From Ehretia macrophylla (Eukaryota; Streptophyta; Magnoliopsida; Boraginales; Ehretiaceae), in the NCBI GenBank assembly GCA_037974665.1, contig CM075783.1, positions 42,297,712 through 42,361,711 of the forward strand: a stretch of 64,000 bases of DNA. Direction: 5' to 3'. The notes beneath the pieces are model-generated. The model did no database searches and was not told the DNA's origin. It saw only the letters and a program-made list of their open reading frames with translations. Below are positions 1 through 45,900 of the stretch, piece after piece; positions within the stretch are counted from its first letter, which is position 1; every line of letters begins with the position of its first letter. Made by a program: the position numbers and the translations under genes.

Positions 1-1828
1 ATTCTGACCAAGATGCAGACTAAACTTGCGGGGTGGAAGCAGAAAGTCTTGTCCCTCGCTGGTCGCGTTACTCTCTCTAAAGCCGTTTTTGCCGCCATGC
101 CAGCCTATTCTATGCAAGTGACGATTCTCCCTGTTCAGACTTATAAGGAGATTGATAAAATCCAACGTAATTTCATTTGGGGATCATCTAAGGAACAACG
201 TCGTATACATTGGTTATCCTGGGAGTCTATCTGCCGTCCAAAGTCTGAAGGGGGCTTGGGTCTTCGTATGGCTAGAAGTACCAATGAAGCTATGCTTGCC
301 AAACTTGGATGGAAAATTCTTAATGAACCAAATTTGCTCTGGGTCAAAGTTTTGAAGGAGAAATATTTCTCTGATAATTTGTTGTCTTACGAAGGTAAGA
401 ATACTAATTCAAAGGTTTGCAAAGATATCATCAAAGGGAGAGACACTCTAAATAAGGGGATTAAGTGGATTCTTTGTAATGGTCATACTACAAGATTCTG
501 GCTGGACCTTTGGGTTGGAGAAGACACTCTGATTAACATGGCATTTCATCACATTCCTGATAGGATGATACATCTTACGGTTAACCGCTTTGTGCATGAG
601 AATGGCATTTGGAATTGGGTGCTCTTCCAACATCTCATTCCGTACCCTCTTCTTTTGCAAATTTCAAATTTGAAGTGCTATCCTGAAGATTCTCGTGATG
701 ATTTTATCAGTTGGAAGCATGATGCTAACGGTTCTTTTTCTGTGAGTACGACTATTATGTATAACCAGAACATCCATCTGGCCTCGGATATTAAATGGGA
801 AGATCTTTGGAAAATGCCTTGTCCCCAAAGAATTACAATTTTTTTTATGGCAAGCTGCTCATCAGCGAATATCCTCAAGACTCAAACTTAGCAATGGAGG
901 TATGTTGATTGATACAAGATGTGTTTGTTGTGGTACTTTGTGTGAAGATACGATGCATGTTCTTCGTTCGTGCTCTTATGCTCATCAAATTTGGGAACGT
1001 CTCATCCCTAGATCCCTTTGTAATGGGTTCTTCACCATGGATTGGAATGCGTGGATCAATAGAAATATTCAATCTCGTGATGTTTCTTTTGGTGTTAGTT
1101 GGAAATACATTTTTGCGGCTGCCATTTGGGAGATTTAGAGGCTGCGTAATAATTTCACCTTCAGAGGGGCGATGAGGGAACCCCTTGGTGTGACTGTTAG
1201 CCAGATCATTAAGAATGCGAATGAGAATGTGGAAGCTTGGAGGACCCATGACAGCCACCAAATCCAAACCAAGAGGGCTATTATGATTGGATGGGAGAAG
1301 CCGGACATGGGTTACAAGTTGAATATTGACGGATGTTCGAAAGGCAATCCAGGAATTGCTAGGGCAGGTGGTCTATTCCGCGACGTTAATAGTGGGTGGA
1401 TGTCGGGTTTTGGCATCAACCTGGGCATTGCAAGCAACAATAGAACAGAGTTGCTGGCTTTAGAGGAAGGGCTGAGCAGGGCGGAGCATCTCGGACTTCA
1501 TCATCTTTCCATTGAGACTGACTCCTTTTTTATCTGTAACTTGTTGAAAAATAAACCTGACTACAATAACCTGCTCAAGATTACGGTGGAGAATTGTGTT
1601 GAGATTCTTAATAGGCACGGTAATTACCGAGTTGTCCATGTTTTTTGTGAAGCTAATAGATGCGCTGACTGGATTGTTAATTACAGTCTTCATCAACCCC
1701 TTGGATCGTTTTCGTTGGATCAACCTCCAGATGCTCTCCGGACTCTGATTGAGAAGGATAGAATAGGTTTTAAATCCCGTCGAGTTGTTCATTCCTCTTA
1801 GGCTTCGCCTCCTTCCAACCAAAAAAAA
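1..1828 (+). mobile_element. LINE (L1-type) 3' part, nested element, copy A
   Basis: This is the 3' third of a plant L1-type LINE on the plus strand, cut by the window edge. Base 1 aligns with base 44072 in the second copy, where the element is full length. It ends in a run of ten A (1819-1828), followed directly by GTGGGAATAGCT, the 3' target-site copy. The next bases belong to another LINE in the opposite orientation, so the junction is that of a LINE inserted in a LINE. The 5' target-site copy lies upstream of the window. Confidence 0.9.
13..1801 (+). pseudogene. LINE ORF2 C-terminal part (RT thumb, zf-RVT, RNase H), broken
   Basis: The remnant encodes the end of the reverse transcriptase (KLAGWKQKVLSLAGRVTLSK, then the GGLGLR block), a zf-RVT region with CVCC..CEDTMHVLRSC, and a type I RNase H. 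RNase H acidic residues are visible: NIDG near 1322-1333, TELLALEEG near 1447-1473, ETDS near 1516-1527, and a final D in ADWIVNY. Inactivating changes are a frameshift in the T-run near 838-848 and an in-frame TAG at 1136-1138 in the linker before RNase H. The terminal TAG is at 1799-1801. The RNase H reading frame 1172-1801 is otherwise open. Copy C carries different stops, so the two copies decayed separately. Confidence 0.88.
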
Positions 1829-4258
1829 AAGTGGGAATAGCTTGCAAGACTGATTTGATGAGAATTTATTTGCCACTATCAGAAAGGAGGCGATTTTTCC
1901 AATTTTCCATTCTGTCTACGATTCTTTCTTTGACCCATTCAAGGGTTTGAACACGAGATTTACCCCAGTCTGTAAGAAGTCCGAGGTATTTTCCAATGTT
2001 ATTTTTTTGTTTGATATTAAAGACCATTGTCAAAAGATCCATAATACCTTCGGTGTTTGCTTGCTGAAAATGATGGCTGATTTAGAAAAATTAATCATTT
2101 GGCCTAAGACGAAGCAATAAAGGTAAAGAATTTCTTTGAGGGCTTCGGCTTCTGAATGTGTTGCTTCTAGGAAAAACAGTGAGTCATCTGCAAATAGGAG
2201 GTGTGTTAAAGGGGGGGAAAGATCTGGAAAGTTTGATGCCTTTTATAAGGTTCCTTTGTTGGAAAGATGAGAACATGTCAAAAAGAGCTTGAGTGACGAG
2301 TGCAAACAAAAAAAGTGACAAAGGGTCACCTTGTCTCAAGCCCCTTTGTGGATTGAATTGCTTAGTTGGGACACCATTTATGATAACAGAGTATGACACT
2401 GTTGAAACACAACTCATGATCCATGATACCCTTCTCGGGTGAAAGTTCTTTTTGATGAGAAGATGCTCAAGAAAATGCCATTCCACTTGGTCGTAAGCTT
2501 TTTGCATGTCAAGCTTAATGGCAGCAAAGAACTTTTCTGGATTTTTCCTTATCTTGCTAAGTGCATGTACCACTTCTTGTGCTATAAGGATGTTGTCCTG
2601 AATAGCACGGTTAGGGACAAATGCACTTTGAAAAGGGCTGATAATTGAGTCAAGATGGAGACGAAGTCTACCCACCAAGACTTTGGAAAAGATTTTGTAA
2701 ATAAAATTTGTGCACCTTATCGGTCTAAAATCCCCAGTTGTTTCAGGATATTTGGCCTTAGGAATTAAGGCAATATTAGTATGATTGATACATTTGAGAT
2801 TACAATTGCACTGCATAAAATTTGTAATGGCTAAAACAATATCATCTTCCAAAAGCAGCCAACACTTCTTGTAAAAAATTCCTGGAAAACCATCCGGGCC
2901 TGGAGCTTTATGGTGTCCCAAACTCTTAGCTGCACTTATAATTTCTTCCCTGAAGACAAGCTTGATTAGCTCCTGATTAATCTGGTCAGAGATGCGAGGT
3001 CGAACGCAATCAAGCACTGCTCCACAATTACGGGCTCCATTACTAGTATACAGCTTGTGGAAGAATTTGGTAATCCATTCAGAAATAGTGCTAGGATCTT
3101 CAGTCCACTGTCAATCCTCATTTTTAATCCTTAAAATTCTGTTATTTGCTCTCTACTGTTGAGTAGAGGCATGAAATAAACGAGTGTTACGGTCCCCAGC
3201 TTTAAGCCAATTGACTCGTGCCTTATCAACCCACATTTTTTCCTCTGCATCCAAGAGAGCTCCTAGTTCTGAAACCACAACACTGTATTCTTCAGAGTTG
3301 AAAACCTGTTGTGGTTGATTGCAAATGTGAACAACCTATCTTTCAAGTGAGCAATCGCAGCTTTGTCTCTTTTGAACTGATTAGAACTCCACCTGATTAA
3401 ATGTTTCCTACATCTGAAGAGCTTCTTTTTGATAATTTTGACTATATATCCCCCAGTAAGGTGCTTCCAACAATTCTCCACAATACTGTTACATTCAGGA
3501 TAATCAATCCAATGAGAAGCAAAATGGAACCTTTTCCTTGATTTTTGTTGAGTATTATTATCAAGCAACAAGATGATCGGACTATGGTCAGAACCCACAG
3601 GGGGTGGGATAGCAACCCAGGCATCTGGATAAGAATTAAACCATTGAAGATTTGAGAAAACCCAGTCAATCCTGTGTTGGATACGACTAGCTCTTTCTCT
3701 ATTATTTGACCAGGTGAATCTACAGCCACTACTAGCAACTTCTATCAGCTCAGCTCGATCAATGAAGTCTCTGAAGTCCTACAAAATCTTTGGATTTTTT
3801 TCCCTTTCCTCCATCTTTGTCAGACAAATTCTTGATCATGTTAAAATCCCCCATTATAACATAGGGATCATCTGAGGACGCAAAAATATCATAAAAATGA
3901 TTCTAGAATTTTTTCCTTGACTGATGATTTGGGTAACAGTAAACAAATGATAGCAAAAAACTGTTACCTTTAAGGTCTTTGACAATGGCTTTGATTGAGA
4001 ACTCATCGTTGTCCACCACCTTGACATCGGCATAATCTCGGCAGAGCAAAGATAGGCCTCCTGACGAGCCTGAGGGGTCAACACAAGCCAACAACTTGAA
4101 CCTTATTTTTCTGCAAACTCTAAGAAAATATTATTTTTCCGCATCTTGGTTTCAGACAGGCCAATCAAGATTGGATCAAAATGAGAGATATAATCTCTCA
4201 GAGAATTAACTATTAAGGCCGGCCCTAAACCTTGACAGTTCCAACCCAATAGTTTCAT
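1829..4258 (-). pseudogene. LINE ORF2 N-terminal part (endonuclease + RT), broken
   Basis: On the minus strand ORF2 starts at ATG 4258 with MKLLGWNCQGLGP, the first block of an APE-type endonuclease. A later endonuclease block, GSDHSPIILLLDNN, lies near 3540-3598. The reverse transcriptase follows at 3017-1850: APGPDGFPG, KLDMQKAYDQVEW, GLRQGDPLS, and the catalytic FADD near 2185-2196. The coding region is cut by frameshifts and stops (for example around 4095, 3260 and 2184). The frame stops at the nested insertion. Function in life was target-primed reverse transcription; this copy is dead. Confidence 0.87.
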
Positions 4259-4297
4259 ATCAACCTTGGGTCCTTTTTACGGTCAGAACTCGAGACC

Positions 4298-5761
4298 TTA
4301 AGAGTTTGGATTTTCTTTAGGGCTTACATTCATTTGGATTGGATTTTTTGTGAGTCTTCTGATTTTTTGTTCCTTCACTTTCAGCAACTTTAGAACACTC
4401 CAGAGTTTCCAATGATTTGGTGATATGAATGTCAACAAGGCACAACTCCATGTCACCTTTATCTTCGGTTTCAATATGGCTTGCTTTACGTTTATTCTCA
4501 CCTTTTTTTGTTGGGGTAGAGTTGTTTTTTTTGAAGTTGGTTTTTCCGTTTGTTTGACCTGCACTGTCAGAAAGATTAGTGGGATGGGCTTGGGGTATAG
4601 TAGTGGGAGTGGTTTGGGTTGGAGAAGAGTTGAAAAGGTAGTGGGCCTCTGCATTCTTACGATGGGATGCTTTTTTGTGTCTAGCAGAAGATTGGGCCGA
4701 GGACTGGGTCCCTGAAAATTGGCTTTTGGGCTGTGATGGGCTAGGAGTAAACGTTTGGCAGGTTTGGGAGTTTTGAATTTTGGTGAGATTGGTGAGGTTG
4801 ATTTGACTGAAGATTGGTTTACAGCTGTGGTTTTACCAGAGTTAATGGCAGTTGTGAGGCTCAATGGGTTCTGGCTAGCTTGGGTTTGAGTTGGATTCTG
4901 ACACTTTGCAGGGTTGATTGGACAATTCTGAGTAGCAAGAGGAGACTTTTTTGCAATTTGTTTTTGGTATTGCTCACGGTGGCGCGTGAGGCTACCTTCC
5001 GCCATAGCTTTAGGATCTTCTTCTCCATATTGTTTGGCAGCAACAACTCATAAATTCTTTCTTCCAGGGGCTGCGCTTAACCAAGGACCCAGTAAAGGGG
5101 TTTCACTATCTTCTTGTGCTTGTTTTTCAAGAAAGTGTTTTTCCTGACAATCTTTTTCCGGATGATCTAATTTACCACAAAGTTGACAGAACTCTCCCAA
5201 CTTTTCATATTTGAACTTGATCCAAAGATCAGGAAGGTTTTCACGAGGAAGAGAAAAGCCAGGAATCAATGATTGGTGGATGTTCCATCTGATACGAATT
5301 CTCATACAGCAAACTGCGTCCGAGTTCCTACCATCATCCAGATCCACCTCTTCGAGTTCGCCTAAGTATTTGCTTATCTTCTCAGCATTTTCTTTTGATA
5401 CAAATCCAGTCGAGAAGCCATGGACTTGAATCCGAAAGGACGTATGATCGAGGTCTATTTCGTGAACTGATAGAGTATCCTTCCAAGGATGGAGAAGGAG
5501 GTGGTAACCATGGACAGCCCATGGTCTGAGATTCCATGCTCTTTACTTGTCTTGAGCTGAACCAAATGTTATTCTGAAGACGTTGTTATCAAGCAGACGA
5601 GTTTCTGCTGGGAGTTTAAGTCCCCAACTTTTGTTTATCACAGATCTAACCAGACCAGGAGGAGTTGGATTTGGTGATAAGACTTTTGCTAAAAGGGATA
5701 GTTTGCAGTGGTGTTGAACTTTCGGGTCAGTGTTGTGGTTAAGAGGGATTGAGATCTTCAT
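4298..5761 (-). pseudogene. LINE ORF1 (DUF4283 + CCHC zinc knuckle), broken
   Basis: ORF1 begins at ATG 5761 with MKISIPLNHNTDPKVQHHCK. The first part resembles the DUF4283 region of plant LINE and gag-like proteins. A CCHC knuckle, CQLCGKLDHPEKDC, lies near 5145-5186. A long Pro/Ser/Thr/Lys-rich tail ends at a TAA at 4298-4300. An in-frame stop near 5543 and a frameshift near 5005-5050 break it. The protein family binds nucleic acid in the LINE ribonucleoprotein. Copy C has the same early stop, so that stop predates the segmental duplication. Confidence 0.85.
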
Positions 5762-7599: not shown

Positions 7600-7968
7600 T
7601 CACCTGGAACAACAAAAAGAATCAAATTAAGCAAAATAACGGAAAAGTTGAAAGACATAAATATCAATTAAGCTAAAACTCAACGAGGAACGCTCACGTA
7701 CTTTGTTGTTTTTTTGCTCCGGTCGCCTCTTTTTTTGCGAGGTTCGAGCCACACAATTTTTAAAAGAATATCCCCCGCTGCGTTTCCAATGCTGTATCAA
7801 AATGGGTGGAAATATTATTATCTAATCTCAAATTAGATAACTAAAAAAAATCAGAAAAAATTACAAAACAAAAATTATAGAATTAGAAACCTACCAAACA
7901 CCGAGAGTCCCAAACCCAAAAAGAAAGACTGCCGTTCTCAATAGCAAACCAGGATCGTTGTCGCACAT
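7600..7968 (-). CDS. Small spliced gene, ~55-aa putative membrane peptide, copy A
   Basis: The minus strand shows a compact gene. A 3' splice site with a pyrimidine tract (CTTCTTCCTTGCAG) precedes GGTGAAGATG. The first coding exon is 7968-7895 (24 codons + 2 nt) and ends at GTAGGT. The second starts after TTTTGATACAG at 7791, in matching phase, and runs to a GTACGT donor after 7702. The next acceptor (TTGTTCCAG, exon from 7603) gives AAG then TGA, so the spliced product has 55 residues ending KKTTK. Read-through without this last splice gives 61. The protein starts MCDNDPGLLLRT, has one hydrophobic segment (about residues 8-27, rich in G and F), then a basic tail. Family not recognised. Three copies keep the frame and splice sites. 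Confidence 0.6.
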
Positions 7969-8064
7969 CTTCACCCTGCAAGGAAGAAGAGAAAGATCAT
8001 CAATGGGGATAGATCTGATGGCTGAAAATAACAAAACACAATAAAACGATGCATACTCCTTTAC

Positions 8065-8200
8065 CTATTGATAGATAAGAGAGAGAACGATAGGCTTTAG
8101 GTGTGTATACGGATACAGATCAACAAGTAGACCTACCTAAAGCACAATGGTAGGTCGATGGGTTTGGGCCGCTTTTAGAGGGAAAATTTCCATAGTATTA
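8065..8200 (-). promoter_or_regulatory. 5' UTR exon and promoter of the 55-aa gene, copy A
   Basis: On the minus strand a 5' splice site ATAG|GTAAAG ends a non-coding first exon at 8065. Intron 1 is then 8064-7976. About 100 bp further upstream lies TGGGCC (8165-8170 on plus; GGCCCA on minus) beside AAACCCA. TGGGCC is the plant Site II motif, known from promoters of many ribosomal and mitochondrial-protein genes and often paired with telo-box-like AAACCC. No TATA box is evident close to it. B and C keep the motif and the donor. Confidence 0.45.
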
Positions 8201-8370: not shown

Positions 8371-9224
8371 TAGTGGAACCTCTTTAAATTAATACTCGAT
8401 AAATTAATAATCTTTTTTATTTAATAAAAATGTCCAATCCCGACTTAGGACCAATTTAAAAAGTTGATAACTTCGATAAAATTATAGGATAATACATTTA
8501 AAAAAATTTATTTGTATTTTATTGACTCAAATATTTGATAAATTAATAATTAACTAAAAAATACATAATAAATTGACTATGACGTTTTTTTAAAATATGA
8601 ATCAAAAGTAGGTTATCTTTTGTTAAACTTTAAATTTAATTGAATCTCATATTTAATTATTTATAGACTGTTTGAAACAAATGAATTCCACAAAATTTTG
8701 TGGAATTGATTTGCAAATCTAATTTTTTATATTTGGAAACATCACTTTAAAAAATTGAAAATCCAAGATTTGTAAATTTTGGATTTACTCAAGGCTTACT
8801 CAAATCATTACTCAAGACGTGAAATTTACAAATTCACGTTTTTTAAGTTAGTTCCTTCTTTTGATGACAAAATTACATTTTCTTTTGAGATAATACTACA
8901 AGGATTAGAATACAAGATTAGAGAAATTAGTTTTCATCCTGATCCTACAAGGACTTGGATACGAGATTAGAAAAACTTTGTTCTAATCCTACTAAATTAA
9001 ATTTTATCTTCTATTCTTATTACTTATCTATTCAAATTGAACTGAAAAAATATAATTCACTTTTTTAAAAAAGATATCATAATCATAATATATTTACTAT
9101 AAAGCCAAAAAAATTAAAAATACCTCTATTAATTAATAGTTATTAATTTATCGATAAATTAATATCTCATTAAATTAATAGAACTTGGTGGTCCTAACGC
9201 TATTAATTTAAAGAGATTCTACTG
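8371..9224. mobile_element. Emigrant/Lemi1-like (pogo) MITE, copy A
   Basis: The left end TAGTGGAACCTCTTTAAATT and the right end (complement CAGTAGAATCTCTTTAAATT) form terminal inverted repeats. They resemble the CAGTA-AACCTCTATAAATTAATA ends of plant Emigrant and Lemi1 pogo-type elements. TA flanks both sides. The interior has no transposase. The right arm repeats TTAATTTATCGATAAATTAA-type palindromes typical of these ends. Confidence 0.65.
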
Positions 9225-11637
9225 TAAATAATTTTTTATTTTAGATGACTATGATGTTAAGACTACGGCTCTATTTTGCTTAACTTTTTTATACTCAAAA
9301 GTATTTTCTGTGAGTTTGGAAGTCGATCCCACCTGTTTGACCCATTTCTGAAAGCACTTTCAGGTAGAAGCTGAAGTTAAAAAAAGCTGAAAATCAATAA
9401 GCTCCAAATTGGAGCTTTTCAAAATGGATTTTTGCGAAGCTGTTTTTATATAATGTGAGAAACTGTTGTCTTTTTCTTTCTCAAATATACCTCTTCATAT
9501 TTTTTTAAAGTAAAATATTACCCTCAAATTTTATAAAAGCTCAATATTGCTCAATATATGCCAAACAGAGCCTACATGAAATATAGATGAATTAATAAAT
9601 AATTCACGATTTAAAATCCTAATATAAAGACGAAAAAAACTAGGATAGAAATGTGAAACATAAATCCACAGTGAATAAATATTTGTGATTTTAGATGGCT
9701 AAGTATATTAAAACTACCTGAAAATAATGATGAATGAATAAATACTTCATGATTTAGGATTCTAATTTAAAGACGAACAAAAAAAAAAAAGCTTGGATTA
9801 AGAAATGAAGGAAATAAAATTCACCATGAAGAAGCTCGTAAAAAGAATAAGAAAACTAAGAACATAGGGAATGAGGGTGAAAGAATAAGAACAATAAAAA
9901 AAAAAAAAATTAGAGGACAAGTTATTTTTTAATTTTACAAAAAAGGTGTTTTTAAACAGAAAATTTTAATTAAAGAAAGAAACATGTAATGATCATCAAG
10001 AAAAGTAATCATAAGGTCTCTGGCTTAACAGTTTATCACCAAATAATTATCTAGGCAACCAAAGATACATGGTCAAATGGCCAGTGACTAATTAGTCTTC
10101 TTTATAGTTGAATCAATTTCGAAAAAATTTAAATTCATAATGATAGTAATAGTTAAGGGTAAATTTTACACTTGATCCATATTGTTTACATATTTTTTCA
10201 ATGTACTCGTTAATATTTTAAAAGACTCATAGTGGTCCTTAATATTTACAAAAATTATTTAAAATGGTACATATTATTCAAACTTTGTTCTAATCCTAAT
10301 AAATTAAATTTTATCTTCTATTCTTATTACTTATATCTTCAAATTGGACAGAAAAAATATAATTCGCTTTTCAAAAAAAGAGATCATAATCATAATATGT
10401 TTACTATAAAGGTAAAAAAATTAAAAATGTCTCTATTAATTAATAGTTATTAATTTATCGATAAATTAATATCTCATTAAATTAATAGAATTTGGTGGTG
10501 TCAACGCTATTAATTTAAAGAGGTTCTACTGTAAATAATTTTTGATTTTAGATGACTATGATGTTAAGACTACGACTCTATTTGGCCTAACTTTTTTACA
10601 CTCAAAAGTACTTTTTGTGAGTTTGGAAGCCGATTCTACCTGTTTGACCCATTTTTGAAAGCGCTTTCAGGTAGAAGCTGAAGTTGAAAAAAGTTAAAAA
10701 TTAATAAGCTCCAAATTGGAGCTTTTCAAAATGGATTTTTGCCAAACTGTTTTTATATAATGTGAAAAACTGTTTTCTTTTTCTTTCTCAAATATACATC
10801 ATCATATTTTTTAAAGTAAAACAGTCAACAACTTTTGTTCATCAGCATTTTTAACCAAAGTTCTATTTCAAAAACTCTATAACTCAAAAGTTAAAATTAC
10901 ACAGGTAGGCCAAACAGAGCCTACATGAAATAGAGATGAATTAATAAATAATTCACGATTTAAAATCCTAATTTAAAGACGAAAAAAACTAGGATAGAAA
11001 TGTGAAACATAAATCCACGGTGAATAAATATTTGTGATTTTAGATGGCTAACTATATTAAAACTACTTGAAAATATTGATGAATGAATAAATACTTCATG
11101 ATTTAGGATTCTAATTTAAAGACGAACAAAAAAAAAAACTTGGATTAAGAAATGAAGGAAATAAAATTCACCGTGAAGAATCTCGTAAAAAGAATAAGAA
11201 AATTAAGTACATAGGGAATGAGGGTGAAAGAATAAGAACAGTAAAAATAAAAATAAAAAAATTTAGAGGACAAGTTATTTTTTAATTTTACAAAAAAAGT
11301 GTTTTTAAACAGAAAAAATTAATTAAAGAAAGAAACATGTAATGATCATCAAGAAAAGTAATCATAAGGTCTCTGGCTTAACAGTTTATCACCAAATAAT
11401 TATCTAGGCAACCAAAGATACATGGTCAAATGGCCAGTGACTAATTAGTCTTCTTTATAGTTGAATCAATTTCAAAAATATTTAAATTCATAGTGATAGT
11501 AATAGTTAAGGGTAAATTTTACACTTGATCCCTATTGTTTACATATTTTTTTAATGTACTCCTTAATATTTTAAAAGGCTCATAGTGGTCCTTAATATTT
11601 ATAAAAGTTATTTAAAATGGTACTTATTATTCAAACT
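8974..11637. repeat. Direct duplication of ~1.3 kb within unit A
   Basis: 8974-10280 is repeated at 10281-~11637, both starting AACTTTGTTCTAATCCT. The left breakpoint lies inside the Emigrant-like element and the right one inside the Mutator-like MITE, with AAACTT shared at the junction. Both halves carry the same GGCTCT MITE and the same poly-A/ATT blocks. The same structure occurs in B and C, so it predates the unit duplication. No gene is in it. Confidence 0.85.
9267..9572. mobile_element. MITE with GGCTCT-TTTGGC inverted ends (two copies in unit A)
   Basis: The left end GGCTCTATTTTGCTTAACTT and the right end (complement GGCTCTGTTTGGCATATATT) are inverted, with TAC on both sides. The second half of the tandem duplication holds a longer copy at 10574-10922. 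The centre contains the hairpin AAGCTCCAAATTGGAGCTTT. No ORF. I cannot assign a superfamily from a 3-bp flank alone. Confidence 0.5.
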
Positions 11638-11908
11638 TAACCAATTTGGTCCTTATTGTTTTAAAAAAAATTTAATTTAGTCTTTATTATTTTTTTTAAA
11701 AATTTAATTCAGTCCCTGCACGTTACCTCTATTTGAAGACTAAATTAAATTTTATGAGAAATAATAATAATTAAATTGGCTAGTTTTGAATAATAGGGAC
11801 CAATTTAAATCACTTTGTAAACATTATGAACTAATATGATTTTTTTAAAACATTAAGGACCAACTTAAAAAAAATTATAAAAATAGGGACTAAGTGTAAA
11901 ATTTACCC
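11510..11908. mobile_element. Mutator-like MITE with 10-bp target duplication, copy A
   Basis: Perfect outer inverted repeats GGGTAAATTTTACACTT / AAGTGTAAAATTTACCC are flanked by TAATAGTTAA at 11500-11509 and 11909-11918. A 9-10 bp duplication fits Mutator-like elements. The arms also carry inverted GTCC-TATT blocks, so the element could fold back over most of its length. Non-coding. Confidence 0.75.
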
Positions 11909-15795: not shown

Positions 15796-16607
15796 TTTGT
15801 ATTTTTGCGGCCAAGTGGGCCAAGTCCATCGTCCAATACGGTTATATAATTTAACAATAATATTGGTATTTGTGTGCTCCTTATTATACAATGGTGGTAT
15901 CATAAAAGAACACTATGTTGCACAAACTTTCCGCTATCGAGTCTGGAAAAAGAATAGTAATTTCAGCAGTGACCAAATGATTAGTTAACTTTTTGACTAA
16001 TTAATCTTTCTAATTAACTAATTCAAAATATTTAAATTTATCATGAAAATAGTACTAAATCTAAATTGTTATAAATTGAATAAGTATATTTTACAAAATC
16101 AACGTGGCACATAATTTATATTCTCTTCCTTTTAAATATGTGACATTCTCATTGCCCCACATAGAATGGAAAAAAATAGTACAAACTCTTCAAATATGTG
16201 ACATTCTCGTCACGCTACATAGAACGGGGAACCACAACTTAGGACCACCAGATAATAGCGAGAGTCGACACTTTTAACTCATATCCTGTTCTATTACCAC
16301 CTATAACCATCCAGGTCCAACTGTTAACTTATTCGTAGATAACTACCTCAAGCCTCAAAATTTATATATTTTAAATGAATTTAACGTAATCTTACCTAAT
16401 ATAAACCGTTATAAAAAAGAAAATGTACAACCTACCTACTTATGCACATAATATCTTTAAGTATTCGTTTAATAATCTTGAATAAGAACTCGTCGACCGT
16501 CCTTTTGTCAATGAAAAATCAAAGTCTACTCTTAATTCATCACTCCATTTTTCCATTTCTACGCTTTCCAGAAGACTTGACTTGTCCTCGTATAGAACTA
16601 TATTAAC
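15796..16607. other. Upstream region of PIRL copy A; no gene seen
   Basis: AT-rich. A 63-codon open frame at 15797-15988 recurs in C but overlaps the LTR-like end and TGGTATCA, so I do not call it a gene. Two CATTCTCATTGCC/CATTCTCGTCACG-type short repeats lie at about 16143-16215. The region expected to hold the N-terminal ~150-200 residues of a PIRL protein shows no matching exon. Confidence 0.5.
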
Positions 16608-19600
16608 ATGTTTCTAAAAGATAATTGGCAAAAACTGCGAAATTTTCATATGGAGAAAGAAATGGTTGAGGTTGATGATCCTGACCATGTTAACGATGAT
16701 CAAGTTGATGAAAAAGTGGTTCAGATATTGAAAGATGCATCAACGAAAGTTGTGGAGAGAGTTGAGCTATCAGGGCATCAACTTAGGTTCTTACCAGAAG
16801 CCTTTTGTAAGCTTCATGGCTTAGTTGTTCTCAATCTTTCACACAATGAACAGGAGGTTAGTTTGACAGTTCTGTAAAGTGTGCGCCTCGTTTAAAAGTT
16901 TTCGCTTAAGACGTTAGAAGGGTATATTTTATTGGTTTACTGTTTCTAACAGATATTTTTAGATAGTTGATCAATTGAAGTTTAGTCCCTATTGTTACCC
17001 TTTTGTTTCAATTTAGTCCCTATTATTTTATTTGTCTCAATTTAGTCCCTATTGTTTACAAAAAAATCTCAATTTGGTCCCTTCCGTCAAATAAAGGTTA
17101 AATCTAACAGAAAGTTGGTCACGTGCACCGCATGTGACCACGGTCTCAGGGGTAATTTTGGAATATAACAATAGAAGTTCAATTTAGTCCTCAATGTTTT
17201 GAAAAAGTTTCATTTGAGTTCTCAATGTTTTAAAAAAATTTCAAATAAGTCCTCAATGTTTGAAAAATGTTTCAAATAAGTCCTCAATATTTTAAAAATA
17301 TTTCAAATAGGTCCTCAATGTTTTAAAAATATTTCAAATAGGTCCTCAATGTTTGAAAAATATTTCAAATAAGTCCTCAATATTTTAAAAATGTTTCAAA
17401 TAAGTCCTCAATATTTTGAAAAGATTTCAATTAAATCCTTACTGTTCTATAAAGTTGGAAATAAACTCTTAAGGTCCCCCATCTCTTAAACACACAAGAT
17501 TTAGGTGGTTAACAAGGAGGAAATAGACTTGTCTTGATAGATGTAACTCAAAAAATTTAGTCAAGTTAGCTTTTAACTAATAAGTGATAGATAACTAAGA
17601 TAACGTCCGTGAAACCAAATTCAAATTTGTCAAAACCAAAATTAGGGAAGTCACAATAGGTAAACAAAGAGGCAGAATAAGGGCACAATATACGTTACCA
17701 ACTGCAGACCTTTAGCATTTTTCATTTGAATACCTGTTATGAAAACAATCATAAACACCTCAACATTAGAAAAAATGATGTTTCTTCATCCTTAATCCAA
17801 AAAAAACATAACAATAGTATCATCAAAGCATCAGTCATAAAAGTCTGTCATAATCCCATAACCTGTCATAAAAAAAGTCATTAAATATGGTTAAAGTCAT
17901 TACATTTAGCTATCATAGTCCCATCCATATACAAAAATCATCTTTACATATCCTGTCATAATCCCATCCATCTACAAAAATATCCATCAGTCATGTCATA
18001 ACCTATTTGTAACCCATCCACAAAAACCATTGGGTTGATTAACTTTGTTCATAGCATGTTCATTCATCAATATGAACAAAGTTACAAAAAATATCCATCA
18101 GTCTTGTCATAACCTATTTGTAACCCATCCACAAAAATCTCTGGGTTGACTAACTTTGTTCATACCATGTTCATTCATCAATATGAACAAAGTAAGGACT
18201 TAATTGAAATCTTTTCAAAACATTGATGACTTATTTGAAACATTTTTAAAATATTGAGGACTTATTTGAAATATTTTTAAAACATTGAGGACCTATTTGA
18301 AACATTTTTAAAACATTGAGGACCTACTTGAAATTTTTTTAAAACTTTGAGGACTTATTTGAAATATTTTTAAAATATTGAGGACTTATTTGAAATATTT
18401 TTAAAATATTGAGGACTTATTTGAAATTTTTTCAAAATATTGAGGACTCAAATAAAACTTTATTGTTATATTCCAAAATTGCCCTTGAGACCGTGGTCAC
18501 GTGCGGTGCACGTGACCAACTTTCTATTAGATTTAACCCTTATTTGACGGAAGGTACCAAATTAAGATTTTTTTTCAAACAATAGGGACTAAATTGAGAC
18601 AAATAGAACAATAGGGACAAAACTGAGACAAAAGGGTAACAATAGGGACTATCTGTGAAATTTGCCCAATATATTATACAAAACTAATGTGGGACGGATA
18701 TTACAATCTTTACCTTAAATGGGAGACTGGCAATACGTTGAATCCAATCAATCAACTCAAAATACTTAAAAAATTCATAATACAGTGGGAGAGAACCAAA
18801 AGCATTATAAAGTGAAAATTACATGAGATAGTACAATCGCCCCACTTATATAGGTGACGAGCCAATGGAGAGCCTACTTGTTCACTTGATCTCTACCTCT
18901 TTTAGAACCTAGGTCCTGCTATTAGCTAGCCAATATATTGAGTCTAATTCACTAACTCGAAATGTTTAAACCAGTAGTGACAATAATAGAAAATCGAAAT
19001 ATCATAATCTGAACAGATATTTTATTGTCTAGATAGAAAGAAGTTAATGATCTCATAATTCACTTGTCTCTTGATATCCAAATTATTAAAGAGTGTCTCC
19101 GTTTTCCAATAATAAATTTGTCTTTTTGATAGTTCAAAATGGTATGTCATTTGTAGTAGTTATGTTGTTGGTTATGTTAAGAGTATCTTTTTAAGTGATT
19201 CCTGATGTGTTTCTTTTGTTATGGGGTAAATTGCCTTTTAACCCCGTGTGTTATGCCTAATTCGCTGCTTACCCCCTGTGTCGCGGTATTATAAAACACA
19301 GAGGGACTGCAGAATTTGCTGATAAATCCCTTGCTCTGTTATGTTACAGGCCATTCCTGATTCAATTGCAGGACTGCAGAAATTGGAGGATCTTTATGTG
19401 TCATCCAACCTTGTGCAGAGCTTACCAGACTCCATTGGCATGTTAACAACCCTGAAGATTTTGGATGTTTCTGCAAATAAACTTACTGCGATTCCAGAAA
19501 GCATTGCTGGTTGCAGGTAATTATCGCGCTGTATCTTCAGCCACGAGCTCTTTTCTTCTTGATCCTAGTGACAATTCTGAATTTGCTGACAGGTCTTTGA

Positions 19601-20212
19601 TGGAGTTGGATGCGAGCTTCAATAAATTAATGTTCTTGCCTGGAAATATTGGTTACGAATTGGTTAATCCGCGCCCTTCCAAAGTCTGTTTTTGAAATGA
19701 AATCTCTGAGACATTTGGATGCTCATTTTAATGAGCTTCATGGAGTGCCATATGCAATTGGAAGATTACAAAGTTTTGAGGTTTTAAACCTCAGCAGCAA
19801 TTTTAATAATTTGAGAGAGCTTTCTGAATCAATTTGTGATCTGACCAACCTCAGAGATCTTGATCTCAGTAATAACCAAATCCAAGCTCTTCCAGGCACA
19901 TTTCACCGGCTTGAAAATATAACTCGGCTTGATTTAGATCAAAATCCACTTGTAATCCCACCTCTAGATGTTGTATCTAAAGGCGTTGAAGCTGTAAAGG
20001 AGTTTATGCTGAAGAGACAACGCGATATGTTAGCTGCTGAAGAAGAAAGAAGGGTGCTCGAAGCTAATATGGGAGCTCAGACAGGATGGCTGGCTTGGGG
20101 AACCTCCATGTTTAATGATGCCGTCTCCGAGGTTGCAGGATATCTAGGGAAAGGCATGAATTCGAGCGATCCATATCTGGATCAACAGTTGTTATTAACT
20201 TTGGAGAACTAG
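16608..20212 (+). pseudogene. PIRL1/PIRL9-like leucine-rich-repeat gene, copy A (broken)
   Basis: The encoded protein belongs to plant intracellular Ras-group-related LRR proteins. Exon 1 is 16608-16856 (LSGHQLRFLPEAF, LVVLNLSHN), donor GAG|GTTAGT. Exon 2 is 19350-19516 ([15 protein letters not shown]), phase 2. Intron 2 is 76 bp. Exon 3 is 19593-20212, with LRRs [30 protein letters not shown], then NPLVIPP and a C-terminal [17 protein letters not shown] that resembles PIRL9. After GYELVN (about 19670) some 30-odd bases are missing relative to the family. The normal frame therefore ends at TGA 19693-19695, while the LRRs continue in another frame. The usual long N-terminal region is absent. 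Intron 1 holds a 1.7-kb foldback element. Possibly transcribed, probably not a full PIRL. Confidence 0.8.
16983..18667. mobile_element. Foldback element with long inverted arms in PIRL intron 1, copy A
   Basis: Arms of about 450 bp face each other: left from TAGTCCCTATTGTTACCC, right ending GGGTAACAATAGGGACTA. Each arm holds about eight tandem ~30-bp subrepeats (TTTCAAATAAGTCCTCAAT on the left, its complement on the right). Each also has a CACGTG-containing block; at 18495-18517 the bases GGTCACGTGC and GCACGTGACC face each other across 3 nt. The centre has two ~115-bp direct repeats with TTTGTTCATA hairpins. No protein. The right end reads GAAATTTGCCC; the left end lacks this, so it is truncated. 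Confidence 0.7.
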
Positions 20213-21829
20213 AACCTTAGTTTGTATGAATTGGCATATAAACATGAGTGATTGAGTCTACCTCAGGTACATGTAATTTGTTCTTCCTCTGCTGTCTGTA
20301 AGGTAAAACATATTGAATAATGTTTTTCATTATGTGAATATATCTATAGATGCGATGAGTTTCATAGGTGTGTCATACTATATATATAAAGTTACATGGA
20401 ATTCAAGTTTACAATTCCTGATAAGGCGCCCCACTGCACCACAAGGTTTATAACTTTAGAGTAGATTCAATGTGGTCCTGGTTTGGTGAGTTCCTTATCA
20501 TAAAAAAAATATGTTTACAATTCATGCAGCTAGTAACTATGAATTTGATAATTATACTCTGCTTCATGCAATAATTTGCAATCTTACACTAACTGGCCAT
20601 CTGAACTCGGTGTGTTTCTGTGTGTAGATATGAGTTGAAATAGTCATTTTCTACCACAGATGTGGACTTAGACTAGAAGATAAATTTTGATTTTTGAACA
20701 ACACAAAAGTGGCTAAAAATCCTTGCCAATGCACCATCATTACGGACATTTTTCTTTGGGCGTAGTTAGCCGGACCCAACAGTCCTAACATACACTGTGA
20801 AACTCACATCATACGAGTTTCACATGTTGAATGAGCCAGTCAGACTCAACAATTTTCCTTTTTTGTGATAAGGGTAATCAAATATGTCAAATATTAATTT
20901 TATGAAATTATGTTTGAATTCCAGATAAAATAATAATTGGTCACATGTGTAAAGTTCTCATTCAATAAAATGTCAAATTCACTTTAAATATACTATAAGT
21001 AATCTACCTTATAATTTGTAATAGTATATTTTTACAATTAAAACTCGTGATGTAACATCTTCCCGGGGGGAAACAGCCGGAAAACAAAGAAAGATTCCCA
21101 TAGTTGTCTCAAAGGAATGCAACGCACAAAGCAAACCACATCTCACGAAATAGTTAACTCATTCCATAAGGCACAAAAACCTTTCATATTCTCTCCATGC
21201 ATAACACAACACGCACACCATCCTCTATATAATCACATTTTGTGCCTTTACCTAGTTGAATTAGATAATCGATATCAAAAATGTTGCTCGACATCTTCAC
21301 CCTGCAAGAAAGAAGAGAAGCATCATCGATGGGGCTAGACCTGGGTGGAAATTAATAAGATTTTACCAACTTATCTACAAAGAAGGAAAGATAAGAAAAG
21401 CATGCATGCGCCTTTACCTAGTTGTGTCGGCGCGGAGAGATAACGACTGTGGTTTTTTTTTTTTTTTGAAAGGAAGGATAACGATTGAGTTCAAGGGAGG
21501 CTTTAGGGTTTTTGGTGATAACCATGACCAAAACTGATGAGCACCAAAAAGGCATTAAATTTTATCTAATTATGTTGAAATGCATCAGCTTGATGTTTGA
21601 TTTAGCAAGAGATTAGGGAATTATCTTCACGTTAAATGAGATTGTCGACAAGTTTTTACACCAATTAGCTAAAACAACCTTAAATTAAACCAATGAAGTG
21701 ATGCCTTAAAAGATAATTTAGAAAATTACAGACTATAACAAAAGTTTAATGATATATATGATATTTCTTAATTGTCCCACCCATTTGATCTCCACGTGTT
21801 TAATAGTATCAGTGATGTAATGTGTGATT
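20213..21829. other. 3' flank of PIRL copy A with relic of the small gene; no intact gene
   Basis: The first ~250 bp correspond to the 3' flank of PIRL copy B. At 21292-21294 (minus) an ATG follows the same GGTGAAG and TTCTTGCAG acceptor as the 55-aa gene. After MSSN the sequence departs and runs into a second copy of the CAACTAG|GTAAAGG exon-1 donor. Another copy of that donor is at 21411-21425. This is a recombined fragment of the diverged paralogue seen complete at 33640-35764. Confidence 0.5.
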
Positions 21830-22045: not shown

Positions 22046-22704
22046 CTACCACTAATTTGCACAAAGCCAGATATATAATACTATGTGCGATGCATGTACG
22101 AGATCATTTTGGTTCTTCTAATTCAGGAATAAAATAGTGAAATAGATTGAGAAAAATCGAGGAATAAACCGTACCATATTTCAATTATCTATAAATCATT
22201 TGATGCTTGGAGTTACCGATCGGTCTTCTAAACGGTTAACATTTTTAAACAATAATTACTTTTTAGGCAAAAAACCAAGAATATTCTTTTATCGAAAATT
22301 TGTCTACCATACACCCGTCTCTTTCCTTTTTAGTCAAAAACACGACGGCAAATCAAGAATACATCCTTCACATTGAGTAAAGATATGCAACAATAGTATC
22401 TATGGATAACACAGTAAGGCTAAGAAAATACGAACATAAATATATAGCACCAATAAGTTTAGATTTAAAAAGAAATTATGTCATAACTTATAGCACAGAA
22501 AGCAAAAGAGATCAAAGCCTAAGGCTAAGAAAATAGGACCGTAACTATATAGCAGAAACACAACAAAAAGAACGACATGCAATGATCGTTGCGTTGCGTG
22601 CAGCATTCACCTGGAACAACAAAAAGAATCAAATTAAGCAAAATAACGGAAAAGTTGAAAGACATAAATATCAATTAAGCTAAAACTCAACGAGGAACGC
22701 TCAC
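22046..22704. other. A/B unit junction region; no gene seen
   Basis: 22079-22394 recurs before C (51340-51647) and, more diverged, after B (about 36170-36390). From 22396 unit B begins. 22560-22660 holds the 3' exon region of the small gene. No other ORF or RNA is supported. Confidence 0.5.
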
Positions 22705-22976
22705 CTACTTTGTTGTTTTTTTGCTCCGGTCGCCTCTTTTTTTGCGAGGTTCGAGCCACACAATTTTTAAAAGAATATCCCCCGCTGCGTTTCCAATGCT
22801 GTATCAAAATGGGTGGAAATATTATTATCTAATCTCAAATTAGATAACTAAAAAAAAATCATAAAAAATTACAAAACAAAAATTATAGAATTAGAAACCT
22901 ACCAAACACCGAGAGTCCCAAACCCAAAAAGAAAGACTGCCGTTCTCAATAGCAAACCAGGATCGTTGTCGCACAT
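22705..22976 (-). CDS. Small spliced gene, 55-aa putative membrane peptide, copy B
   Basis: Same structure as copy A. ATG is at 22976 after TTGCAG|GGTGAAG. Coding exon 22976-22903 ends at a GTAGGT donor. The acceptor is GATACAG before 22798, and the coding part of the next exon runs to an in-frame TAG at 22707-22705. The product is 55 residues, identical to the spliced product of A as far as I can read, ending KKTTK. Where A has GTACGT, B has GTAGGT, so the stop exists even without the third splice. The TGGGCC motif is kept upstream (about 23173-23178). Unknown family: one hydrophobic segment, basic tail. Confidence 0.62.
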
Positions 22977-23378
22977 CTTCACCCTGCAAGGAAGAAGAGA
23001 AAGATCATCAATGGGGATAGATCTGATGGCTGAAAATAACAAAACACAATAAAACGATGCATACTCCTTTACCTATTGATAGATAAGAGAGAGAACGATA
23101 GGCTTTAGGTGTGTATACAGATACAGATCAACAAGTAGACCGACCTAAAGCACAATGGTAGGTCGATGGGTTTGGGCCGCTTTTAGAGGGAAAATTTCCA
23201 TAGTATTAAATCAATAATATGGTTTGTAAATATATTAATTGTGGATATTCTTTTCTGTTTCTATATCTTGGAGCTTTACTTTAGAAGTTTTAACAACAAT
23301 ATGTATTTCATCAATAACACTAATCAATTTTAATATTAATTTTAATTAGTTAGTATTTATGAATAGATAATGCAAATA

Positions 23379-24231
23379 TAGTAGAATCTCTTTAAATTAA
23401 TACTCAATAAATTAATAATTTTTTTAATTAATAAAAATGTCCAATCCCGATTTAGGACCAATATAAAATTTTGATAACTTCGATAAAATTATAAAATAAT
23501 ACATTTAAAAAAATTTATTCGTATTTTATTGACTCAAATATTTCATAAATTAATAATTAACTAAAAAATACATAATAAATTGACTATGACGTTTTCTTAA
23601 AATATGAATCAAAAGTAGGTTATCTTTTGTTAAACTTTAAATTTAATTGAATCTCATATTTAATTATTTATAGATTGTTTGAAACAAATGAATTCCATAA
23701 AATTTTGTGGAATTCATTTGCAAATTCAACTTTTTATATTTGGAAACATAACTTTAAAAAATTGAAAATCCAAGATTTGCAAATTTTGGATTTACTCAAG
23801 GCTTTCTCAAATCATTACTCAAGATGTGAAATTTACAAATTCACGTTTTTTAAGTTAGTTCCTTCTTTTGAGGACAAAATTACATTTTCTTTTGAGATAA
23901 TCCTACAAAGATTAGGATACAAGATTAGAGAAATTAATTATCATCCTAATCCTAAAAGGACTTGAATACGAGATTAGAAAAACTTTGTTCTAATCCTACT
24001 AAATTAAATTTTATCTTCTATTCTTATTACTTATCTATTTAAATTGAATTGAAAAAATATAATTCACTTTTCAAAAAAAGAGATCATAATCATAATATAT
24101 TTACTATAAAGCCAAAAAAATTAAAAATATTTCTATTATTTAATAGTTATTAATTTATCGATAAATTAATATCTCATTAAAGTAAAGAAATTTGGTGGTC
24201 CCAACGCTATTAATTTAAAGAGATTCTACTG
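23379..24231. mobile_element. Emigrant/Lemi1-like MITE, copy B
   Basis: Inverted ends TAGTAGAATCTCTTTAAATT and complement CAGTAGAATCTCTTTAAATT, with TA flanks. Same element and same site as in unit A, so inherited by duplication. Non-coding. Confidence 0.65.
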
Positions 24232-26735
24232 TAAATAATTTTTGATTTTAGATGACTATGATGTTAAGACTACGGCTCTATTTTGCCTAACTTTTTTATA
24301 CTCAAAAGTGTTTTCTGTGAGTTTGGAAGCCGATCTTACCTGTTTGACCCATTTCTGAAAGCGCTTTCAGGTAGAAGCTGAAGTTTAAAAAAGCTGAAAA
24401 TCAATAAGCTCCAAATTGGAGCTTTTCAAAATGGATTTTTGCGAAACTGTTTTTATATAATGTGAGAAACTGTTATCTTTTTCTTTCTCAAATATACCTC
24501 TTCATATTTTTTTAAAGTAAAATATTATCCTCAAATTTTCTAAAAGCTCAATATTTCTCAATATAGGCTAAACAGTCAACAACTTTTGTTCAACAGCATT
24601 TTTAACCAAAGTTCTATTGCAAAAGCTCTACAACTCATAAGTTAAAATTATACAGGTAAGCCAAACAGAGCCTAAATGAAATAGAGATGAATTAATAAAT
24701 AATTCACGATTTAAAATCCTAATATAAAGACGAAAAAAACTAGGATAGAAATGTGAAACATAAATCCACAGTGAATAAATATTTGTGATTTTAGATGACT
24801 AAGTATATTAAAACTACCTGAAAATAATGATAAATGAATAAATACTTCATGATTTAGGATTCTAATTTAAAGACGAACAAAAAAAAAAGCTTGGATTAAG
24901 AAATGAAGGAAATAAAATTCACAGCGAAGAAACTCGTAAAAAGAATAAGAAAATTAAGTACATAGGGAATGGGGGTGAAAGAATAAGAACAATAAAAATA
25001 AAAATAAAAATTAGAGGACAAGTTATTTTTTAATTTTACAAAAAAGGTATTTTTAAACAGAAAATTTTAATTAAAGAAAGAAACATGTAATGATCATCAA
25101 GAAAAGTAATCATAAGGTCTCTGGCTTAACAATTTATCACCAAATAATTATCTAGGCAACCGAAGACACATGGTCAAATGGCCAGTGACTAATTAGTCTT
25201 CTTTATAGTTGAATCAATTTCGAAAATATTTAAATTCATAATGATAGTAATAGTTAAGGGTAAATTTTACACTTGATCCCTATTGTTTACATATTTTTTC
25301 AATGTACTCTTTAATATTTTAAAAGACTCATAGTGGTCCTTAAAGTTTACAAAAATTATTTAAAATGGTACATATTATTCAAACTTTGTTCTAATCCTAC
25401 TAAATTAAATTTTATCTTCTATTCTTATTACTTATCTCTTCAAATTGGACAGAAAAAATATAATTCGCTTTTCAAAAAAAGACATTATAATCATAATATG
25501 TTTACAATAAAGCCAAAAAAAATAAAAAAAAAATATCTATTAATTAATAGTTATTAATTTATCAATAAATTAATATCTCATTCAATTAATAGAATTTGAT
25601 GGTCCCAACATTATTAATTTAAAGAGGTTCTACTGTAAATAATTTTTGATTTTAGATGACTATGATGTTAAGACTACAACTCTATTTGGCCTAACTTTTT
25701 GACATTCAAAAGTATTTTTTGTGAGTTTGGAAGCCGATTCTACCTGTTTGACCCATTTTTGAAAGCGCTTTTAGGTAGAAGCTGAAGTTGAAAAAAGTTG
25801 AAAATCAATAAGCTCCAAATTGGAGCTTTTTAAAATGGATTTTCGCGAAACTGTTTTTATATAATGTGAAAAACTGTTTTTTTTTTCTCAAATATACCTC
25901 TTCATATGTTTTAAAGTAAAACAGTCAACAACTTTTGTTCAACAGCATTTTTAACCAAAATTCTATTGCAAAAACTCTATAACTCAAAAGTTAAATTACA
26001 CAGGTAGGCCAAACAGATTCTACATGAAATAGAGATGAATTAATAAATAATTCACGATTTAAAATCCTAATTTAAAGACGAAAAAAACTAGGATAGAAAT
26101 GTGAAACATAAATCCACGGTGAATAAATATTTGTGATTTTAGACGGCTAACTATATTAAAACTACTTGAAAATAATGATGAATGAATAAATAATTCATGA
26201 TTTAGGATTCTAATTTAAAGACGAACAAAAAAAAACTTGGGTTAAGAAATGAAGGAAATAAAATTCACCGTGAAGAAGCTCGTAAAAAGAATAAGAAAAT
26301 TAAGTACATAGGGAATGAGGGTGAAAGAATAAGAACAGTAAAAATAAAAATAAAAAAAAATTTAGAGGACAAGTTATTTTTTAATTTTACAAAAAAGTGT
26401 TTTTAAACATAAAAAATTAATTAAAGAAAGAAACATGTAATGATCATCAAGAAAAGTAATCATAAGGTCTCTGGCTTAACAGTTTATCACCAAATAATTA
26501 TCTAGGCAACCAAAGATACTTGGTCAAATGGCCAGTGACTAATTAGTCTTCTTTATAGTTGAATCAATTTCGAAAATATTTAAATTCATAGTGATAGTAA
26601 TAGTTAAGGGTAAATTCTACACTTGATCCCTATTGTTTACATATTTTTTTAATATACTCCTTAATATTTTAAAAGACCCATAGTGGTCCTTAATGTTTAT
26701 AAAAATTATTTGAAATGGTACTTATTGTTCAAACT
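23981..26735. repeat. Direct duplication of ~1.35-1.4 kb within unit B
   Basis: 23981-25381 and 25382-~26735, both starting AACTTTGTTCTAATCCTACT. Copy of the duplication in unit A, about 95 bp longer in its first half because the GGCTCT MITE keeps a segment lost from A and C. That MITE is at 24274-24672. No gene. Confidence 0.82.
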
Positions 26736-27005
26736 TAACAAATTTGGTCCTTATTATTTTTAAAAAAATTTAATTTAGTCTTTATTATTTAAAAAAAAAA
26801 ATTAATTCAGTCCCTGCACGTTAGTTCTATTTGAAGACTAAATTGAATTTTATGAGAAACAATAATAATTAAATTGGCTAGTTTTGAATAATAAAGACCA
26901 ATTTAAATCACTTTATAAATATTAGGAACTAATATAATTTTTTAAAACATTAAGGACCAACTTGAAAAAAATTATAAAAATAGGGACTAAGTATAAAATT
27001 TACCC
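26608..27005. mobile_element. Mutator-like MITE, copy B
   Basis: GGGTAAATTCTACACTT to TATAAAATTTACCC, flanked by TAATAGTTAA at 26598-26607 and 27006-27015. Same insertion as in A and C. Confidence 0.75.
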
Positions 27006-29793: not shown

Positions 29794-31013
29794 CCTATCA
29801 AGCATTAACTGTGGGTCTATGCGACCGACCCTGGACATAGCCACCCACGTGGTCAGGGGTAGAGTCAGAATTTTAAAATTGGGGAAACCAAGATTCAAAT
29901 AAGAACATTTATAATAAGATAAAAAAAAAATAAGGGGGACGTTAACTTATTTTTAACGATACTATATAGATTTTTTTAACGGCATTAACTTTTTTTTTAA
30001 CGATATTACATAGACTTTTTTTTTTAAAAAAAAAATATTGGGAGGGCCGGTGCACGTGGTAAACTGGGTAAAAAAAACAAAAACAAAAGTCACGATTAGA
30101 ATAAAAAGTTCTTACTTCAAAACAATCTCTGGAGTTTTTCTTTATTCGAACCAGTCTTATAAAAAAATAAAATTTCATATTTAGCTCCAAATATATGCTA
30201 TTGGGATGAGATGGCGCCTCCTACTAACTCTAACCCCTAAGAACACTAAAAATGACAATAATATTGGTATTTGTGTGCTCCTTATTATACAATGGTGGCA
30301 TCATAAAAGAACACTATGTTGCACAAACTTTCCGCTATCGAGTCTGGAAAAAGAATAGTAATTTCAGCAGTGACCAAATGATTACTTAACTTTTTGACTA
30401 ATTAATCTTTCTCATTCTTGAATTAACTAATCCAAAATATTTAAGTTTATCGTGAAAATAGTACTAAATCTAAATTGTTATAAATATGATAAGTATATTT
30501 TACAAAATCAACATGGGACATAATTTATATTCTCTTCCTTAAATATGTAACATTCTCATTGCCCCACATAGAATGGAAAAGAATATTACAAACTCTTGAA
30601 ATATGTGACATTCTCGTCAAGCTACATAGAACGGGGAACCACAGCTTAGGACCACCAAATAGTAGGAAGAGTCGACACTTTTAGCTCATATCCTGCTTTA
30701 TTACCACCTATAACCATCCAAGTCCAACTACTAACTTATTCGTAGATAACTGCCGCACGCTTCAAAATTTATATTTTTAAAATGAATCTAACGTGATTTT
30801 ACCTAATATAAACCGTTATAAAAAAGAAAATGTACAACCTACCTACTTATGCACATAATACCTTAAGTATTCATTTAATAATCTTGAATAAGAACTCGTC
30901 AACCTTCCTTTTGTCAATGAAAAATCAAAGTCTACTCTTAATTCATCACTCCATTTTTCCATTTCTACGCTTTCCAGAAGACTTGACTTGTCCTCGTATA
31001 GAACTATATCAAC
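29794..31013. other. Upstream of PIRL copy B; no gene seen
   Basis: Corresponds to 14746-16607 of unit A but lacks A 15195-15850 (SINE fragment and most of the LTR-like part). The block with TGGCATCA at about 30296 is kept. The minus frame at 29942-30190 is a low-complexity artefact. Confidence 0.5.
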
Positions 31014-33639: not shown

Positions 33640-33954
33640 AGGCTCACCTACTTTGTTTTTTTTTTTTTGGCTCCGTTCACCTCTTTTCTTGCGGGGTTTA
33701 GGAGGATTTGACACAACAAAATTATCACGTCATGATATATGAATATATATATATTCATATTAGGCCGAAAAAAATACTAATAATCCTCCTGATTTGCGAA
33801 AAAAATAACCGACGCTGCGATTTCAACGTTGTATAAAAAAGGATGACCATATTATTATCTAATCCCAACTTGTTTACATATGAACAAGTAGATAAATACG
33901 TAGATTATTAAATCAGAAAAAATTTACAAACAAAACGAAAAAAGTCACAACCAA

Positions 33955-33994
<40 letters not shown>
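33955..33994. repeat. (ATT)n microsatellite
   Basis: About 13 ATT units at the left edge of the inserted organelle-type DNA. A shorter ATT tract (35629-35643) lies at the right edge. Confidence 0.9.
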
Positions 33995-34109
33995 GTTAGA
34001 GTTTGTGACCCGAATTCTATTTGGCCCAACCCGAAAAGTTCGCGGTGCGATCCATTTGGTGAAAACTTATTTTTGGAGAAAAATTAGGGATCTGTGGTGG
34101 TAGCGAAGG

Positions 34110-34378
34110 TCGAGTCGTTACCTTAACCGCAAGGAGGGGGATGCCGAAGGCAGGGCTAGTGACTGGAGTTCAGTCGTAACAAGGTAGCCGTACTGGAAGG
34201 TGCGGCTGGATCACCTCCTTTTCAGGGAGAGCTAATGCTTGTTGGGTATTTTGGACACTGCTTCACACCCAAAAAGAAGGGAGCTACGTCTGAGTGAAAC
34301 TTGGAGATGCAAGTCTTCTTTCCTTTCTCGACGGTGAAGTAAGACCAAGCTCATAAGCTTATTATCCTAGGTCGGAAC
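34110..34378 (+). pseudogene. Chloroplast 16S rRNA 3' end and 16S-trnI spacer fragment
   Basis: From GAGTCGTTACCTTAACCGCA the last ~110 nt of plastid 16S rRNA can be read, including GTCGTAACAAGGTAGCCGTA, GGAAGGTGCGGCTGGATCAC and the anti-Shine-Dalgarno CCTCCTT (about 34214-34220). The plastid spacer follows (CAGGGAGAGCTAATGCTTGT, later CTAGGTCGGAAC), and similarity stops at about 34378, before trnI. It is a nuclear (or mitochondrion-relayed) copy, too short to give rRNA. Confidence 0.85.
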
Positions 34379-45871: not shown

Positions 45872-45900
45872 GCTTTATCTCATTCTAACCAAAAAAAAAA

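Follow-up and report, generated by a model that had tools for sequence, protein, structure and literature searches.

The window analysed here, a 64,000-nt stretch of contig C20 of Ehretia macrophylla, contains three tandem units (A, B and C), each carrying a short minus-strand frame that a preliminary description took to be a spliced gene for a 55-residue membrane peptide, kept intact while its surroundings decay. The locus raises two questions: whether these frames belong to a real spliced gene, and whether it is the protein that has kept them open. An open 55-aa frame is present on the minus strand in every unit (7600-8200, 22600-23180 and 51850-52430), and so is the three-intron plan attributed to it, in which one intron lies in the 5′UTR, one interrupts the coding sequence in phase 2 and one follows at the 3′ end, with GT-AG sites. 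In copy A, read on the minus strand, the 5′UTR intron (intron 1, GTAAAG...TTGCAG) spans 7976-8064 and is followed by coding exon 2 (7895-7968; 74 nt, phase 2 at its end), the phase-2 coding intron 2 (7792-7894), coding exon 3 (7702-7791) and the 3′ intron (7604-7701), whose donor is the first GT of GTACGTGAGC, with an alternative donor possible 4 nt further in. Exon 3 of copy A corresponds to exons 3 and 4 of those family members in which a further intron, missing from A-type genes, lies inside this exon. Diverged relatives repeat the GGTAAAG of copy A intron 1, and its TTGCAG ahead of the GTGAAGATG leader.

The coding region of copy B occupies 22708-22976 on the minus strand (exon 2, 22903-22976; intron, 22799-22902) and that of copy C 51959-52226, also on the minus strand (exon 2, 52153-52226, with the change D3Y; intron, 52050-52152). 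In both, exon 3 runs to a lysine codon, ending at 22708 and 51959 respectively, and TAG follows directly. This family stop, AAG-TAG, reads AAG-TAC in copy A, which ends after the lysine only if the 3′ intron begins at the first GT; provided that donor is used, the stop is a TGA at 7602-7600.

The three copies are young. Across 1.3 kb, identity to A is 98.1% for B and 97.7% for C, and a DNA search with A across the 1.58-Gb genome of 20 contigs finds eight near-identical copies. Because A, B and C stand only about 2% apart and eight such copies exist, survival of the frame is weak evidence of selection, and the earlier argument that a frame kept open must be a frame selected is not supported for these copies. 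Among the eight, L005 has ATA in place of ATG and A is without TAG; ten other coding sites vary, six of them as amino-acid changes, in an alignment read by eye in which the 5′ flank is poorly aligned and the coding columns of L003 were read off by hand. These variable sites are too few for a selection test. Five of the six amino-acid changes belong to L007 (G000:C20:42242230-42242830), all in exon 3.

A wider family emerges when the genome is queried with the DNA of A and of three relatives (L043, L038 and L041). Besides the eight near-identical copies, many matches are partial or come from diverged sequence; nearly all of these lie on C20 and C14, with short matches additionally on C3, C6, C11, C12 and C17. 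Thirty-four stretches were fetched by coordinates, together with loci cut out by the searches; one of those fetched, L050, is another close copy, and L051 is without a match. Gene models were assembled for 18 loci, namely 15 of the 34 stretches plus A, B and C, and the remaining 19 stretches contribute only BLAST pieces, a by-eye view or an exon-2 parse, with L087-L089 left out entirely. Eleven of the 18 models are open to a common lysine-stop end, A being counted despite its change from TAG to TAC. The other seven are broken or incomplete: L026 and L028 contain early stops, L030 has ATA instead of ATG together with a 2-kb intron and an end out of phase, L034 yielded no exon 4, L036 and L040 finish out of frame (their exon 4 measures 36 nt, that of L043 47 nt), and L047 has lost an acceptor.

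L047 is the sister of a diverged copy within the window, copy D (33641-35793, minus strand). In both, the exon-3 acceptor has changed from AG to AA (at about 33830 in copy D), and for this reason we call copy D a pseudogene. The preliminary description had cited it (as 35675-35764) for an in-frame difference of 9 nt; the difference stands, in an open exon 2 at 35675-35757 (83 versus 74 nt, the longer value resting on window coordinates 35757-35675 and on L047), but the gene around it is no longer intact. The intron of copy D (35674-33829) holds approximately 1.65 kb of extra DNA compared with the 199-nt intron of L047. Another relative is represented by fragment E (21280-21358, minus strand), which comprises a leader and a start with its ATG at 21294 and appears truncated.

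Evidence that the family has been spliced comes from L086, a close relative of L082 and L083 (96% identical in the exon-2 stretch). In L082 and L083, the coding exons measure 65, 41 and 35 nt, and between them lie a first coding intron of 165 or 186 nt and a second of 116 nt; the coding sequence of L086 is uninterrupted, and its 141 nt equal 65+41+35 exactly. The alignment shows both coding introns gone, including the equivalent of copy A intron 2, to within a few letters that are ambiguous where the exons join, whereas flanking intron sequence is retained. The simplest account would be that L086 was replaced by a spliced, reverse-transcribed copy. The second coding intron is found in L036, L040, L043, L041, L037, L038, L082 and L083 and not in the A clade, where it was probably lost. 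The precise intron absence in L086 and the lack of the second coding intron in the A clade point to splicing of the family's transcripts in the proposed manner, a conclusion that would carry over to A, B and C by homology. Thus, the spliced gene first described from three young copies holds up as a spliced gene family, in which one relative precisely lacks both coding introns and diverged relatives have a common exon-2 phase. The splice sites of intron 2 are regular, with GT at all 17 donors (15 GTAGGT, GTAGCT in L030 and GTCGGT in L041) and AG at 16 of 17 acceptors, counts that arise partly by construction as boundaries were set by homology and at GT/AG.

Exon 2 keeps its phase across the family. 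Its coding lengths of 62, 65, 74, 77, 80, 83 and 89 nt are every one 2 mod 3 (L043, parsed as 45 nt at a nearer GT, has 89 nt in its gene model), and L039 is the sole out-of-phase exon 2 among the parsed loci; the lengths of intron 2 fall into all three classes mod 3. Outside exon 2, frame-breaking changes occur in L026, L028, L030, L036 and L040. Simulated random substitution gives a joint chance of finding no stop of 0.003 to 0.02 in five pairs, which were picked among open-frame members and are accordingly biased towards coding.

The protein itself is not conserved, and the initial methionine is the only invariant column across ten members. Pairwise dN/dS over 16 pairs extends from 0.15 (A-C and B-C, on three changes) via 0.59 and 0.78 to 3.2, with one pair undefined. 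Codon models of 14 sequences, with L026 and L028 truncated at their stop codons and kappa searched on a coarse grid, have their grid optimum at omega 1.4; an omega of 0.5 is rejected, lying 39 units of 2*lnL under the best fit, and an omega of 1 lies 2.9 units under the free fit, so that values above 1 are not significant. Purifying selection on the protein was not found in these models over the wider family. The clade L034/L036/L040/L043 prefers omega 2.0 (4.6 units versus 1; two of its members end out of frame and one is without exon 4), the clade of five around A prefers 1.4 (1.7 units versus 1), and the C14 clade of five with L041 prefers 0.7-1.0, with no better fit than at omega 1 (0.4 units). 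When coding sequence is compared with introns and 70-nt flanks, coding differs more in six of 11 pairs (p 8e-4 to 1e-13), not all of them independent, as in L038-L082, where the coding difference is 40% versus 15% for introns and flanks. In two of these six pairs, the ends of L036 and L040 that are out of frame enter the comparison, and the excess is absent in the other five, all three pairs around A among them. Positive selection in the family is suggested.

An organelle role had been guessed from a promoter block, GGCCCAAACCCA, which we take to be site II/telo-box-like. The block is where it was reported, at 8159-8170 in copy A (minus strand), 23167-23178 in copy B and 52417-52428 in copy C. 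Blocks of the GGCCCAA type precede the GTGAAGATG leader by 196-198 nt in six of the eight close copies (those caught by the pattern) and lie within 330 nt upstream in four of 16 diverged loci (L026, L040, L043 and L048, the last with a weaker form). In the other 12 no block was found within this 330 nt, a span from which farther blocks would be missed. As far as seen, only part of the family has the block. The organelle role, which rested on it, is made doubtful by the presence of the block in only four of 16 diverged loci and by the fast change of the protein, which argues against a respiratory or ribosomal subunit.

The predicted products share a moderately hydrophobic 19-residue segment, found in all 17 peptides scored (every peptide of at least 40 residues, broken members and duplicates included). 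Organelle outer-membrane signal-anchored proteins, of which OEP7 is an example, are alike in carrying a single segment of moderate hydrophobicity close to the N terminus, followed by basic residues; the present family differs in its fast sequence change, in the basic cluster of A, B and C, which starts 17 residues past the scored segment, and in that its targeting is putative. On the octanol scale, the segment scores between -0.24 and 0.38 per residue, and at least three lysines or arginines lie within 15 residues past it in nine of the 17 peptides, A, B and C having one basic residue there. According to a review (PMC4010795), most organelle signal-anchored proteins, TOM20 being named among them, have a hydrophobicity below 0.4 and at least three basic residues after the segment; all 17 peptides fall under this 0.4 per residue, although the Wimley-White scale behind the rule may be another than the one used here. 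On these predictions, a membrane location of the peptide is plausible. Plant COX5c-type genes, which have a site II promoter and a leader intron, offer a further likeness in their short protein, single hydrophobic segment, leader intron and site II block. They differ from the present family, which has coding introns and a protein that is not conserved, and whose members show no likeness by eye to the COX5c protein.

Relatives outside the family were sought at several levels. A genome search with the A peptide for a conserved single-copy parent returned only the eight close copies and a weak match on C7 (E 1.43), and a search with the L038 peptide matched only L038's own exons; protein searches of this kind are insensitive with exons so short. 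The C7 match was rejected as a parent, its 2.2-kb stretch being without a DNA match. The A peptide and ten family members gave nothing credible in Pfam, where one of the ten matched MotA_ExbB at E 0.13, or in a PDB sequence search, where the A peptide matched two chains of cytochrome P450 (E 0.75 and 0.85). In literature searches we recognised no paper treating this peptide family.

We conclude that A, B and C are young copies within a real gene family, spliced formerly or at present, whose protein changes fast. The reading we favour, with reservations, is that of an orphan family of short membrane peptides subject to gene birth and death, A, B and C being young copies of one member. The family, situated mainly on two contigs, would encode short proteins (46-62 aa in intact models) from genes that have a 5′UTR intron, a 3′ intron and, between these, two coding introns, of which the A clade lacks the second, probably through loss. 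The transcript would be translated, and the product would sit in a membrane through its one moderately hydrophobic segment with the basic tail in the cytosol. Turnover by tandem duplication and loss would most likely proceed under changing selection, as in genes of defence or genetic conflict, and not as in a fixed housekeeping gene. Lineage-specific birth-and-death families of small, fast-evolving peptides, among them plant defence or conflict genes and animal toxin families, are alike in their tandem copies, many of them broken, and in showing, for several pairs, more divergence in coding exons than in introns; unlike them, the present family shows no cysteine scaffold, and an omega above 1 is not statistically established. 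In a bolder form, the tiny membrane peptides would make up a diversifying family, centred on one chromosome and driven by an arms race, by self/non-self recognition or by gamete conflict, its coding exons outpacing their own introns; this strikes us as rather unlikely.

The main rival to birth and death under selection is a once-spliced family that is now mostly dying, in which segmental duplication spreads copies, the splice plan lingers and the protein is neutral. An omega indistinguishable from 1 over the 14 sequences fits this, as do the seven broken or incomplete models among 18, the lost start of L005 and changed stop codon of A among eight young copies, and the broken state of the neighbouring leucine-rich-repeat gene in units A and B. 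Neutral decay would predict equal rates in coding and non-coding sequence, however, and coding is faster than introns and flanks in six of 11 pairs; exon-2 length, moreover, changes in threes at all parsed loci but L039. We hold general decay to be possible, yet distinctly less probable than the reading we favour.

The remaining alternatives fare worse. If the product were a small, conserved subunit of a complex in mitochondria or plastids, this would account for the GGCCCAAACCCA block of A, B and C and of some relatives, for the hydrophobicity below the reported cut (PMC4010795) in 17 of 17 peptides and for the basic residues past the segment in nine of them. Such a subunit is improbable for a protein with no credible Pfam or PDB relative, a single invariant residue across ten members and an omega not below 1, in a family where 12 of 16 diverged loci show no block within 330 nt. 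Promoters of the site II/telo-box type also occur in snoRNA genes, and intron 2 is more alike than the exons among L037, L038, L041 and L082, as expected if the gene hosts an intronic small RNA and its introns matter while its exons do not. Against such a host gene, which we regard as very improbable, the window contains no Rfam match at gathering score, Rfam scans of 12 family loci give four weak matches and no more, each of them in L026 at a place that its gene model does not cover, the folding of intron 2 is no better than that of simply shuffled sequence at nine of nine loci, and exon-2 length changes in threes. Least probable of all is chance, with an open frame and GT-AG pairs arising at random; the shortness of the frame (55 codons) speaks for it, and the precise double intron loss of L086 and the same plan in diverged relatives contradict it.

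If transcribed and translated, the family favoured here would be one easily missed by standard annotation, as its coding exons measure about 30-110 nt, it contains no domain and it changes fast, and it would offer a small example of orphan membrane peptides arising and turning over. Its intron-less relative L086 is a natural record of splicing within the same genome. L086 was also considered as the leader of an immune-receptor gene and rejected in that role. The adjoining piece, presumably NLR-like, recurs on C6, C4 and C7 without an L086 match; since it stands at six places with stops, at which the L086 gene query has no match, it looks like a separate repeat. Among the best 150 of 487 candidates scored, frames related to this piece cluster at C14:17.4-21.4 Mb and 51.6-52.5 Mb and at C15:31.9-35.1 Mb.

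The surroundings of the peptide genes had been described as decaying throughout. This holds for the leucine-rich-repeat gene of the tandem units, which by eye shifts frames in A and B, and our agreement extends to the parts inspected. The gene, LRR by Pfam and presumably akin to plant PIRL proteins, lies at 16596-20209, 31002-33142 and 61549-61827 on the plus strand, and in unit C only its first open piece is seen within the window. Each tandem unit holds two copies of a direct repeat of approximately 1.35 kb (9107-11717, 24114-26815 and 53364-56067). Arrays of a 31-nt repeat occur at 17085-17561, 18117-18536, 62038-62514 and 63072-63429, in two opposite orientations approximately 0.75 kb apart. 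Outside the peptide genes, LINE-type open frames occupy 1-5542 and 37948-49978, and the pieces scanned contain reverse transcriptase, endonuclease, RNase H-like and DUF4283 domains.
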